From NCBI GenBank assembly GCA_029879245.1, contig JAOUQQ010000005.1, forward strand, positions 1-59,670: a DNA stretch of 59,670 bases, in the 5' to 3' direction. The DNA is from Chromatiales bacterium (GTDB lineage Bacteria > Pseudomonadota > Gammaproteobacteria > Thiohalomonadales > Thiohalomonadaceae). The position numbers and the translations under genes are program-made. Of this stretch, positions 38,708 to 43,297 are shown one piece after another; the first letter of the stretch is position 1; each line of letters opens with the position of its first letter. The notes under the pieces were generated by a model that saw nothing but the letters and a program-made list of their open reading frames with translations, did no database searches and was not told the origin of the DNA.

Positions 38708-39751
38708 TTATATCATCCACTTATCTTTGAGCTCGGTCGGCCCCAATGGCTCCACCTCGACACTGTATGGCTCCTCACCCGGTTTGTGGATCTCCACCGT
38801 CACCCTCTCCGCCATCTTGCCCTTGCTATAGCGGGCGGCGATGCGAGCGGCGAGCAGCAGGTCGCTCTCCGCTGGTTCTCCATCTACCAACACCATCGGC
38901 CCCGGATGGGAGGTAGTGTACATGTGGATGAACTGCTTCTTATAGCCCATCAGGAAGTTGTTCTCCCCCTCCTCACGGCTGACGATTAACTTAAAATGGG
39001 GGGCAGGACGGATGTGGCGTCCCACCTTGAGCAGCATAATGTCATCCATCTCATATTCGCGGTTGCCGCGCCCCTGCCACAGGTCCACCAGCTTGCGCGA
39101 GTAGGCCTCGTCGGTGAGGAAGCAACAGCCGCCGGCGGGGGAGGCGTACTCCTCAAAACCAAACTCTGCTGCCAGCGCCATCTGCGGTTTGCGGTTACGG
39201 CCGGAGAAGCCATAGAGACTGTCACGACTCACCCACCCCTCACGCTCGGGCAGGGTAGGAGAAAGGTTCTTCGCGCAGAGCGGGCGCAGCAGGCGCTCCT
39301 GCGCCCCCGACTCACGCGCTACTACCGGCATCGTATCCTTGCGTTGTGACATCGGCCGCTGCCCAATCACCTCACCAGTGATGATGAAGTCGAATCCCTT
39401 CTTCTCCGCCCACTCCAGTGCCTTCTGCACCATGAAGATCTTGCAGTCGAGGCAGGGATTCATGTTGGCGCCATAACCGTGCTTGGGGTTGAGCAGCACA
39501 TCCTTGTACTCCTCGACGATGTCGATGATGTGTAGCTTGATCCCCAACTGCTCCGCCGACCAGAGGGCGTTATTACGCTTAGGCTTCGCCTTGTCCTTCT
39601 TGCGAATGGCGTGGGTGTGTCCCTCCACACAGAAACCGGTGAAGAAGTTAATGCCCTCGACATGGATGCCCTGTTCAAGCATCACCTTGGCGGCGAGGAG
39701 GGAATCGAGGCCGCCGGAGATAAGGGCGACCGCCTTGCGTTGCTGGGTCAT
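38708..39751 (-). CDS. PP-loop thiouridylase-like protein with C-terminal NFACT-R-like region
   Basis: The 347-residue protein has an N-terminal PP-loop ATPase (VALISGGLDSLLAAKV), a CxxC in NMNPCLDCKIFM, a GGCCF motif, and a C-terminal part (VGRHIRPAPHFKLIVSREEGENNFL, GPMVLVDG, AARIAARYSKGK) that resembles the NFACT-R RNA-binding domain. It is commonly annotated as a tRNA thiouridine enzyme of the MnmA group. MnmA proper is at 12.0 kb, so this is a separate enzyme. I infer TusA-dependent RNA thiolation on a still unknown target. The ATG at 39751 is chosen over an upstream extension that lacks homology. Confidence 0.82.
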   Translation of the reverse strand: MTQQRKAVALISGGLDSLLAAKVMLEQGIHVEGINFFTGFCVEGHTHAIRKKDKAKPKRNNALWSAEQLGIKLHIIDIVEEYKDVLLNPKHGYGANMNPCLDCKIFMVQKALEWAEKKGFDFIITGEVIGQRPMSQRKDTMPVVARESGAQERLLRPLCAKNLSPTLPEREGWVSRDSLYGFSGRNRKPQMALAAEFGFEEYASPAGGCCFLTDEAYSRKLVDLWQGRGNREYEMDDIMLLKVGRHIRPAPHFKLIVSREEGENNFLMGYKKQFIHMYTTSHPGPMVLVDGEPAESDLLLAARIAARYSKGKMAERVTVEIHKPGEEPYSVEVEPLGPTELKDKWMI

Positions 39752-40300
39752 GAATAAGCGGGATCTAGTCGTATACAGGGGGAGCCATTGTAGCTGATCG
39801 TGTGGGTAATGGCAGGTTTTGCCATCTCTATCCGCTATACCATTCGTAATATCACCATGTAATACATAGTGTGACACAGTGCGAACGGGGCTGACTTTTG
39901 CTCTAGCGTAGACGTAGGGTCAGGTTTTATGGATGAGTAGTGTTGTTGTCGTGGGGAAGGTGTTGGGAAAGGGCTTTGAGCCCTTAAATCTTGAGCCAAT
40001 TCTGCCTAATACATCTGCACATAGAATCCGTATAGTCCGGCTTTGATGGCCCGAGCAGGCTAATAAACCCACCTCGGGCGGAGATCACAGATGGAGTATT
40101 CGCGCAGCTCACCGCACTACCAACATGGCAAAAGTTAGTTTATAGTCAGATAAAACAACGAGTTGAGAAGGATGCTCATTACGATGATTAGCAAGACCCA
40201 CCACGACACTCGCGCAAAACAACCACACAGCAGGATTCTATGTTTATTGTAATAGACAGATTCTGTCTAGTTCCAAAAATACCGATTCTGTCTAAATCAC
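39752..40300. other. Gene-poor junction before the cassette array
   Basis: No complete gene is visible in these 549 bp. The left part holds a perfect short palindrome AAGGGCT-TTG-AGCCCTT (39969-39985) without a T-run. A stop-to-stop open stretch at 40066-40191 encodes about 41 residues (…REITDGVFAQLTALPTWQ…) with no start codon or recognisable family, perhaps a decayed gene. The right end carries the repeats described separately. Base composition falls toward AT-rich at the right edge. Confidence 0.5.
40253..40294. repeat. Inverted and direct repeat at the left edge of the cassette array
   Basis: TAGACAGATTCTGTCTA (40253-40269) is an inverted repeat with 7-bp arms. Its right half, GATTCTGTCTA, recurs exactly at 40284-40294, giving two 11-bp direct copies whose starts are 25 bp apart. 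The second copy ends 6 bp before the GTTAGGC cassette boundary. It could be a binding site or recombination scar. Confidence 0.55.
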
Positions 40301-40314
40301 GTTAGGCATAAAAA

Positions 40315-40881
40315 ATGAAACTATATAGTTACGTCATAACTCATGATTATGGTTTCGCCCCAAATCCTTTTGGAGGTTTTCTAACGCTTGCTACATGTAT
40401 GCCGCAAATCCGAAGAAGTGCACAAATCGGAGATTGGTTGATGGGTACAGGATCAACGGACGGGGTTGGTGTAGATAGGCTTATATTTTTAGCAAAAATT
40501 ACTGGAAAACCTTCTTTAGCAGACTATTCAATATTGGATAAATATAGAATAAAGATTCCAAATTCATGTGAAGAAAAATGGGCAAAACGAGGCGACAATA
40601 TCTATTTTCAAAATGCCGATGGAGAATGGAATCAAAGAAGTAATCCTTTTCATGGTGAAGAAGAAATGGCGCATGATCTTAGCGGTTTAAATGTGCTGGT
40701 TTGTGATGAGTTTTGGTATTTTGGAGCTAGCGCCCCAATTATCCCTGTAGAGCACAGGCATCTAATTAAAAAAGGGCCAAACTGCAAGGCAAATGAAAAC
40801 AAAGATGTAACGTCTTTCTTACATTGGGTCAGCACAAGAAAGAGAGGTATAAATGGTAATCCATCCAGCATCAATGCATAA
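40315..40881 (+). CDS. Nucleotide modification associated domain 2 (Nmad2) family protein
   Basis: The 188-residue protein begins MKLYSYVITHDYGFAPNPFG and continues with LATCMPQIRRSAQIGDWLMGTGS, the pattern of the Nmad2 family described by comparative genomics of DNA base-modification clusters. HxxIKKGPNCK and the DEFWYFGASAPIIP segment also fit. The biochemical role is unproven; Nmad domains are linked to hypermodified DNA bases in phages and islands. It is the gene of cassette 1. Its start lies 14 bp after the GTTAGGC boundary and its stop is inside attC. Codon use is AT-rich, unlike its neighbours. Confidence 0.85.
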   Translation: MKLYSYVITHDYGFAPNPFGGFLTLATCMPQIRRSAQIGDWLMGTGSTDGVGVDRLIFLAKITGKPSLADYSILDKYRIKIPNSCEEKWAKRGDNIYFQNADGEWNQRSNPFHGEEEMAHDLSGLNVLVCDEFWYFGASAPIIPVEHRHLIKKGPNCKANENKDVTSFLHWVSTRKRGINGNPSSINA

Positions 40882-40947
40882 CAAGTCGCTCGTTCGGATA
40901 CATACTACGCTGCGCTTCGTATGCACCGCACAGCTTCGACGTTAGCT
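40876..40947 (+). repeat. attC-like site of cassette 1
   Basis: The site runs from GCATAAC (40876-40882, R'') to GTTAGCT (40941-40947, R'). Inner arms pair as GTCG/CGAC and CATAC/GTATG, giving the usual folded attC of about 70 nt. It includes the stop codon of the Nmad2 gene. Confidence 0.75.
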
Positions 40948-40965
40948 GCAAAAGAAGGATAAATA

Positions 40966-41931
40966 ATGACTCAGCAGCATTTCGGAAATGCTCAAGAATT
41001 AATTGACGCTTTTGGTATAAGTAATAACGAGAAATATTCTCGAATAACTCCGCTAAACGATCGCAAGATCGGTTTTAGTATACAAAGAGAATATCCAAAA
41101 GATATTTTATACTCCCCGTTAGTCAATGGTAATGGTCAAGATGACACTGTTGTACTTATACATGTTGTATATGCACATCCTGAAGAAATAAAAACGGAAT
41201 TCGACTCTCACAAAGTACCGCTAATTATAAGAGCAGTGACACATAGTCGTTATAGAGTCGATCATTTTGACTACGATTTTAGTGATCCAAATTCTCCAAC
41301 AAAAGAATCAATTGAAAAAACAAAGGCAACACCAATGCCAGTTGCATTGAATTTTGATAATGAATTCTTCTTTGATCACCACTCAAACACATTTCTAGAT
41401 CATACGCATGAACCTCTTAGTGGTGAGCAAATATTGGAAATAGTATATAAAGCGCATTGTGATACTGCGCATCGCAAGAGAGGGCGTATTATTCGCACCA
41501 AATTAAAGTATCAGAGCTTTGCATCGGCATTCTTTGGAGTCATCATTAACATCTTAATATCTATTTTAACTAAGTTATTTGGTAGGACGCTGGATGATAA
41601 TGAAACATCATCAGGATATTACAGGGGCTATCAAAGAAAGAACCTTAAGAAATTAAGTACTGAAAGCCTAGATGTCTTTGGATACAAAACAGCACGTAGT
41701 GTCATAATATTGTTTTGCTTAATTTCTGCCGTTGCTTTTTTCATAAAATATAAGTTCGGTATTCAGACTCCATATCTAAGTAAAGTATTTTCAGATAGTT
41801 TTTTAGCACTTACGCACTCGCTTATACTGCTATGGTTTTTGGATGTTGTTATGCCATTGATAATATTTCATATTATTAATATTTTAATAAAAACAAGAAC
41901 AAATATCTCATTTAAAAAGTTTAAAGTATGA
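40966..41931 (+). CDS. Unknown membrane protein of cassette 2 (321 aa)
   Basis: I do not recognise this 321-residue protein. The N-terminal 180 residues look soluble (MTQQHFGNAQELIDAFGI, HVVYAHPEEIKTEFD, IIRAVTHSRYRVDHFDYDF). Three hydrophobic segments follow at about residues 185-205 (FASAFFGVIINILISILTKLF), 245-265 (SVIILFCLISAVAFFIKY) and 280-308. A soluble sensor or effector joined to a membrane domain is possible, and such layouts occur in toxin or antiphage proteins, but nothing in the sequence proves it. The gene fills cassette 2. Confidence 0.78.
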   Translation: MTQQHFGNAQELIDAFGISNNEKYSRITPLNDRKIGFSIQREYPKDILYSPLVNGNGQDDTVVLIHVVYAHPEEIKTEFDSHKVPLIIRAVTHSRYRVDHFDYDFSDPNSPTKESIEKTKATPMPVALNFDNEFFFDHHSNTFLDHTHEPLSGEQILEIVYKAHCDTAHRKRGRIIRTKLKYQSFASAFFGVIINILISILTKLFGRTLDDNETSSGYYRGYQRKNLKKLSTESLDVFGYKTARSVIILFCLISAVAFFIKYKFGIQTPYLSKVFSDSFLALTHSLILLWFLDVVMPLIIFHIINILIKTRTNISFKKFKV

Positions 41932-41935
41932 AAGC

Positions 41936-42022
41936 AGCTAACATTACGCTCCAGTTGATTACCAAAAGCGACGCACCTAGCGTCGCTATGCTTTTGCTGT
42001 CAACTGAGCTAAGTCGTTAGGT
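41936..42022 (+). repeat. attC-like site of cassette 2
   Basis: The 87-bp site runs from AGCTAAC (41936-41942) to GTTAGGT (42016-42022). It folds strongly through CAGTTGA/TCAACTG, CAAAAGC/GCTTTTG and GCGACGC/GCGTCGC arms. It begins 5 bp after the stop codon of the preceding gene. Confidence 0.85.
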
Positions 42023-42028
42023 GAATGA

Positions 42029-42532
42029 ATGATGTTTTCTAAATTATTTAATGTTTTTACCAACAGAAAGGAACCACATAAAAGAAGCATTGATTCGTTA
42101 TTTGAGGCTGCTAAAAAAGGTGACCCTGAATCACAGTATTTGCTTTCATTAAAATACTTGTATGGTGATGAAATAGAAAAAGATGAAGGCGCATTTGAAA
42201 GGTGGGCTTTATCTGCATATGAACAAGGTTGCGCTGATGCTCTATACAAATTAGCGCATTACCATAGAAACTCTGAAGGCAGTATGAGAGCTGATTTAAA
42301 AGGCGAAAAAACTATACCTCACATAGAGTTGGCATATAAAGAATTCGAAATTTTAGCAAAATCTGGGTTACTTGAGGCTCAGGAAATACTTGGTGATATG
42401 TATAGGGTCGGTGAAGGTTTTGGAATAGAAGAGGATAAAGAGAAGTCATTAAAATGGTATGAGGTTGCGGTTAGTAATGGGTCTGAGCGTGCACGAGAAA
42501 TCGTCAAGTATATGAAAGAAAATGAACTTTAA
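42029..42532 (+). CDS. Sel1-repeat protein of cassette 3 (167 aa)
   Basis: The 167-residue protein contains Sel1-like helical repeats: LFEAAKKGDPESQYLLSLKY, WALSAYEQGCADALYKLAHY, and LEAQEILGDMYRVGEG followed by SLKWYEVAVSNGSERA. Such repeats mediate protein contacts in signalling, secretion or defence. There is no signal peptide. It begins 13 bp after the GTTAGGT boundary, so it belongs to cassette 3. Its codon use is AT-rich as in the other cassettes. Confidence 0.82.
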   Translation: MMFSKLFNVFTNRKEPHKRSIDSLFEAAKKGDPESQYLLSLKYLYGDEIEKDEGAFERWALSAYEQGCADALYKLAHYHRNSEGSMRADLKGEKTIPHIELAYKEFEILAKSGLLEAQEILGDMYRVGEGFGIEEDKEKSLKWYEVAVSNGSERAREIVKYMKENEL

Positions 42533-42690
42533 TAATATCAAAAATCCATGGGCTCAGCTCTAGCTCTTAACCCACTAGTCTGCTGGTGTTAGTGTGTGTA
42601 AGGCTAAACTCCAGACTTGGTCCTATTCACACACCCACCTTCCTTTCAGCCAGCAGTGCCAAACCTCCTTGTGAATATGTACCCTACGTA

Positions 42691-43092
42691 CTACGGTATA
42701 ACCTCACAAATGTGCTTTGTCCTCTCTTCTTTTTTATAGTCGGTAGCAACGGTAACAGGCATACCTTGTGCCATGCCCTCTACTATTTTCCCACATTTGG
42801 AGAGCTCTTCTAAGACAGGTTTTTTTGACATCTCTATGCTGTATGAGAGTGCCAACTTCTCTGCCTCGTCGCGTTTGCCATCTGTGCAGAGTTTGCGTGC
42901 ATTATCTTCAAACTTCTTCTGCTCGCGCTCCATCTCTTTGAGTTGTTTTTTATCTATCTTCTCTATGCATGTCTGGAACTTTGACATTTGTTCCATCATT
43001 TTTTGCATATCAGCTTGATTCATCCCTTGAGGGGCAGCCGCGTGTGATAGTGCTGATACGAGAAAGAGTGTTACAAAAATAAGCGGGCGCAT
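42691..43092 (-). CDS. Small periplasmic protein of unknown function
   Basis: The 133-residue protein has a signal peptide (MRPLIFVTLFLVSALSHAA), a Met/Gln-rich segment (GMNQADMQKMMEQMSKFQTC) and a charged helical body with further cysteines (KLCTDGKRDEAEK, LSKCGK, KHIC). Four mature cysteines could make two disulfides. The ATG at 43092 sits six bases from AAGGAG, a better start than 43098 or the long upstream extension. It is divergent from glyQ. I cannot assign a function. Confidence 0.75.
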   Translation of the reverse strand: MRPLIFVTLFLVSALSHAAAPQGMNQADMQKMMEQMSKFQTCIEKIDKKQLKEMEREQKKFEDNARKLCTDGKRDEAEKLALSYSIEMSKKPVLEELSKCGKIVEGMAQGMPVTVATDYKKEERTKHICEVIP

Positions 43093-43297
43093 CGTCATCT
43101 CCTTATTGTGAGCTTTCAGGCAAATTTTCCGTCCGACAATACCAGAGTAGGTGTCTCTACACAAAAGGGAACGTCATCCCCCACCCGCTCTACATTGGGC
43201 ATCTTTACGCTCGCAATTTGTACCCTTACCTGTTTTCCCCACCCCGCCCACGCTATAATCCCCGACTTTCGCACTATATATAGAGAAGGGTTACACC

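Follow-up and report, generated by a model that had tools for sequence, protein, structure and literature searches.

An integron cassette of a Chromatiales bacterium carries a TIR-less Nmad2 gene, a possible reader of modified nucleic acids

The Nmad2 family (PF18753) is uncharacterized, and the literature searched holds no proven activity for it, in agreement with the first-pass annotation of the locus described here. A 2026 survey of predicted and validated defense genes includes a nucleotide-modification-associated domain (Nmad family unspecified in the text), which stands as uncharacterized in the figure of predicted systems, and MazG, MazG-C, UDG, and 5-hmdU kinase domains appear elsewhere in the figures of that paper (PMC13092281). 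Defense cassettes of chromosomal and mobile integrons are the subject of 2024–2025 reports cited in the same survey; Nmad2 was not found among integron defense cassettes in the literature searched. In modification-dependent restriction, EVE domains are proposed to serve as readers, with hypermodified thymine as a possible ligand (PMC7641849). In most known loci, Nmad2 is paired with either a TIR protein or Nmad3, whereas the copy analyzed here stands alone in an integron cassette. As in the reported defense cassettes, a single gene lies between attC sites and may have a defense function.

The window, that is, the whole stretch of 59,670 nucleotides analyzed (Chromatiales bacterium, GenBank assembly GCA_029879245.1, contig JAOUQQ010000005.1, positions 1 to 59,670, forward strand), holds the following features of the Nmad2 locus:

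39753–43247, no strand: the full insert missing from a same-genus genome, flanked by a ThiI-like gene (38708–39751, minus strand) and glyQ (from 43298, plus strand)
40301–40307, plus strand: left cassette junction, core site G/TTAGGC (GTTAGGC), its 5' half complementary at 6/7 positions to the R'' of the attC that follows Nmad2
40315–40881, plus strand: ORF of the Nmad2 protein, 188 aa, cargo of cassette 1 (Pfam PF18753 match)
40876–40947, plus strand: attC of cassette 1, with R'' GCATAAC at 40876 and R' GTTAGCT at 40941, recognized by pTBH13 homology and core sites
40966–41931, plus strand: ORF of a 321-aa protein with hydrophobic C-terminal segments, cargo of cassette 2
41936–42022, plus strand: attC of cassette 2, recognized by core sites and by its fold (z −5.04, better than 200/200 shuffles)
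42029–42532, plus strand: Sel1-repeat protein (PF08238, E = 1.4e-10) behind a core site GTTAGGT at 42016

Along its whole length, the 188-aa protein matches the Pfam Nmad2 profile (E = 3.3e-54; 183.9 bits, cut-off 26.1), with residues 2–186 aligned to profile positions 3–196 of 200, which bears out the family assignment made in the first-pass annotation. The ORF is intact, the conserved motifs HDYGFAPNP, GDW, GDN, and YFG are all present, and every residue invariant in the 12 proteins of alignment A1 is retained. Searches of the protein against PHROGs, NCBIfam, and PADLOC gave no significant match, PADLOC, which covers anti-phage systems, having no Nmad2 model and no other model that the gene matches; a sequence search of solved structures likewise returned nothing significant. 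Nmad3 was considered as a distant Nmad2 homologue and ruled out, since comparison of the two profiles revealed no similarity.

The Nmad2 ORF is the sole gene of one complete integron cassette. That the gene is carried as a stand-alone cassette had been proposed earlier and is confirmed by the core site at 40301, the attC at 40876–40947, the homology of this attC to pTBH13 sites, and the presence of a second cassette behind it. The gene starts 14 bases past the core site, and its 3' end is overlapped by the 5' end of the attC. The latter is 85%–90% identical to three intergenic repeats of the Thiolapillus brandeum plasmid pTBH13 (best E = 1e-16), its plain folding is not above that of shuffles (z about −0.2), and its R' serves as the core of cassette 2, whose own R'' (AGCTAAC, 41936) is complementary to that core at 7/7 positions. 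We assessed such pairs by the own-core/R'' rule, under which the 5' core of a cassette and the R'' of the attC that follows the same gene are complementary: an exact match occurs in 0/835 background ORFs, except for two that duplicate a cassette from the integron of this genome, and a match with one mismatch, as for Nmad2, in about 1.4% of them. The 321-aa protein of cassette 2 matched no Pfam family over the cut-off. No convincing attC was found behind the Sel1-repeat gene, which is therefore probably an incomplete or eroded third cassette. A covariance model (R1) built on five attC of the window genome, both window sites included, finds about nine further sites between pTBH13 genes; because the window sites served in its training, only its hits on pTBH13 and on contig C181 are independent. 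An Rfam search of the window attC sites gave no match, ruling out their membership in an Rfam family. Plasmid pTBH13 itself is a 13-kb replicon with an apparent cassette array, no annotated integrase, and a cargo of toxin–antitoxin, FRG, cytidine deaminase, and TIR-caspase genes.

The array lies in an insertion beside glyQ. The distance from the ThiI-like gene to glyQ is ~108 bp in a same-genus genome and ~3.5 kb in the window, and the insert has a G+C content of 34%–46%, compared with 59%–64% in the flanks, the Nmad2, 321-aa, and Sel1-repeat ORFs being A+T-rich (34%–40% G+C). The window cassettes were not matched at the glyQ-side position in other compared genomes of the same family. At that position, locus L055 (4238–8258), from another genome of the family, has about 4 kb of unrelated genes that resemble those for a phosphatase-type regulator and a GGDEF protein. 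About 550 bp to the left of cassette 1 (39753–40304) are also missing from the same-genus genome and hold nested inverted repeats (AGACAGATTCTGTCT). The integron integrase of the window genome is encoded on contig C34 (3209–4150; TIGR02249, 485 bits) together with three attC, and contig C181 has two more attC; no integrase over the cut-off was found on the window contig. Because the integrase and its attC sit on other contigs, the window array, with two attC and no integrase on the contig, is CALIN-like. An integron with its own integrase on the window contig was ruled out, the sole tyrosine recombinase there being XerC/D-like. A phage origin was likewise ruled out, as a search of 50,697 phage records with the query gave no match; only with an alignment as query were five relatives reached in viral contigs.

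As an integron cassette, Nmad2 also occurs in two other genomes of the same class. In G110 (locus L068), the cassette has an exact own-core/R'' match and an attC fold with z of −3.1, and in G305 (L069), a single cassette holds both Nmad2 and a GNAT gene, again with an exact match, and behind it lies a class-D-beta-lactamase-like gene (Pfam transpeptidase domain). These two Nmad2 proteins form a clade of their own (100/99), separate from the window protein, and cassettes have therefore captured Nmad2 at least twice. An integrase over the cut-off is present in all three cassette genomes (G000, G110, and G305), and none was found over the cut-off in G158, G061, and G116, where Nmad2 lies outside cassettes. 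We attribute a core-site match at L067 to chance, given its one mismatch and a genome without integrase. The repeated integron capture of TIR-less Nmad2, and its location within a cas operon (see below), are new.

Nmad2 is rare, occurring in 6/369 genomes of the class and 6/398 of the phylum, with the window genome counted in both. The gene lies directly downstream of one for a short TIR protein in 18 of 35 further loci, a count partly biased by the way the loci were fetched, the measured spacings ranging from −7 to +13 bp; three of the 18 TIRs (L006, L036, and L052) are diverged and were missed by Pfam. The TIR protein is of the Thoeris ThsB type (PF08937; PADLOC PDLC00418, E = 1e-89), and downstream in these loci there are usually either MazG_C and UDG genes or a 5-hmdU kinase-type gene (HMUDK_hel). 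Nmad2 adjoins, or is fused to, Nmad3 in L012, L070, L073, and L074, the fusion protein of L012 (2137–3423) coming from a deltaproteobacterial MAG. In L037 (5527–9908), TIR, Nmad2, MazG_C, and UDG genes are followed by one for a SIR2 protein with a SLOG-like C-terminal half resembling Thoeris ThsA. The genome-wide samples are less biased than the fetched loci: among 11 Nmad2 genomes, the gene is in a cassette in 3, beside TIR in 2, beside Nmad3 in 3, and beside other genes in 3. In contrast to the loci with its usual ThsB-type partner, no TIR was found among the window ORFs and no ThsB_TIR anywhere in the window genome, and a partner hidden elsewhere in the genome is thus ruled out. The suggestion that Nmad2 can do without a fixed operon partner consequently fits the window cassette and some branches but fails for the family: with a TIR directly upstream in about half of the loci, standing alone is a trait of certain branches.

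The window protein falls within a branch of Nmad2 that lacks TIR. Its nearest relatives, from L003 (51% identity), L048 (47%–48%), and L004 (47%–48%), all lack TIR; the tree groups it with L048 (95/84) and L003 (94/88). TIR-linked proteins cluster on this tree, TIR presence changing 4 times compared with 11.6 in shuffles. L003 (5001–5567) and L092 (5999–6565, complement) are from two Neisseriaceae genomes in which cas4 and cas1 of a type I-C CRISPR-cas operon flank Nmad2, the two proteins being identical at 170/188 positions (90%). In L048, Nmad2 adjoins an McrC-like gene (a weak Pfam match, below the cut-off). A frameshifted relative in L093 (5940–6524) stands alone between nuoL and nuoM; this copy is flanked by AGGCTGCCTGAAA repeats resembling Neisseria DNA uptake sequences.

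The structural model, predicted from 18 sequences (pLDDT 89.6, pTM 0.88; it replaced a first model with pLDDT 73), points to a probable PUA-superfamily domain. All 50 of the 50 matches listed by VIA-align are YTH domains (Z 7.4–8.7 over 112–132 residues), and the Foldseek matches, headed by ASCH, EVE-like, and DrmA proteins, comprise ASCH proteins including ZmASCH, MJECL36, PH1033, THYN1, DrmA, the McrB N-terminal domain of Thermococcus, and VcaM4I. Single matches are weak, with no Foldseek match to the PDB under E = 0.001 and VIA-align Z-scores near 8 being middling, and on the model Nmad2 is probably a YTH/EVE/ASCH-like member of this superfamily. Compared with YTHDC1, the Thermococcus McrB N-terminal domain, VcaM4I, and ZmASCH, residues 1–180 of the window protein have a similar predicted fold, whereas sequence identity is 4%–13% and the window Nmad2 has no nuclease fusion; a shared fold by itself does not show ligand binding.

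A domain of this kind could be directed at RNA, binding or cutting single-stranded RNA in the manner of ASCH proteins, as a stand-alone ribonuclease or a translation regulator. ZmASCH, which is among the best Foldseek matches, is reported to be a single-strand RNase (PMC5615036), and YTH domains are mostly RNA readers; the neighbors of Nmad2 elsewhere (TIR, UDG, HMUDK, MazG_C, type I-C cas, and McrC-like genes) indicate DNA modification and defense instead, and we regard an RNA-directed role as unlikely. Still less probable is the role implied by the family name, in which Nmad2 would modify nucleotides or bases as an enzyme, or assist their modification as a chaperone, with the nucleotide pool or DNA bases as its target. 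The operons that contain HMUDK_hel, MazG_C, and UDG genes and the adjacent or fused Nmad3 would fit it, but the cassettes and the Neisseria copies lack such enzymes alongside, and the predicted fold appears nearer to binding domains than to the usual nucleotide enzymes. Nor did we find specific evidence for a nucleotide-pool role of the window cassette, a nucleotide-related role having been one option raised in the first-pass annotation. Equally improbable is an unexpressed cassette with no present function in its host, for which the integrase-less contig, a third cassette without attC, and promoter-like matches no more frequent than in shuffles would speak, and against which stand the intact ORF with its invariant residues and the two other, likewise intact, cassette copies.

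The reading that we favor, at about even confidence, is that the TIR-less Nmad2 cassette encodes a modified-nucleic-acid reader that would derive from defense loci and spread alone; it is the neighbors together with the fold that suggest a reader. In either DNA or RNA, Nmad2 would bind a base that is modified or flipped out. In most loci, it would provide a ThsB-type TIR effector with its sensor or specificity subunit, the pair being placed, as we read these loci, by genes for the synthesis or removal of hypermodified pyrimidines. The cassette branch would have become uncoupled from TIR and, within a small integrase-less array inserted beside glyQ (the Nmad2 cassette, a second complete one, and a probable eroded third), could act alone by binding and blocking phage nucleic acid or, alternatively, could lend specificity to a nuclease or defense system of the host. 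Against this reading, a cassette that lacks an integron promoter may not be expressed, and promoter-like matches do not exceed those in shuffles. The earlier proposal of defense against phages with modified DNA is plausible, being compatible with the predicted YTH/EVE-like fold and with the neighbors.

A broader proposal, which we put forward tentatively and consider rather doubtful as a whole, is that Nmad2 constitutes a new family of modified-base readers sensing hypermodified phage DNA, the usual form of which would trigger a ThsB-type TIR effector, and the mobile form of which, alone in integron cassettes or within type I-C cas operons, would be a plug-in helping other defenses to recognize or resist such phages. 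The predicted YTH/EVE-like fold now ties an uncharacterized domain to a testable biochemical idea, that of a reader, and the three integron cassettes and the cas4–cas1 slot show that Nmad2 travels repeatedly without its usual Thoeris-type TIR partner. The stand-alone cassette is the smallest testable form of Nmad2, and if the domain does read phage DNA modifications, this would explain how some TIR, and possibly CRISPR, systems handle hypermodified phages.
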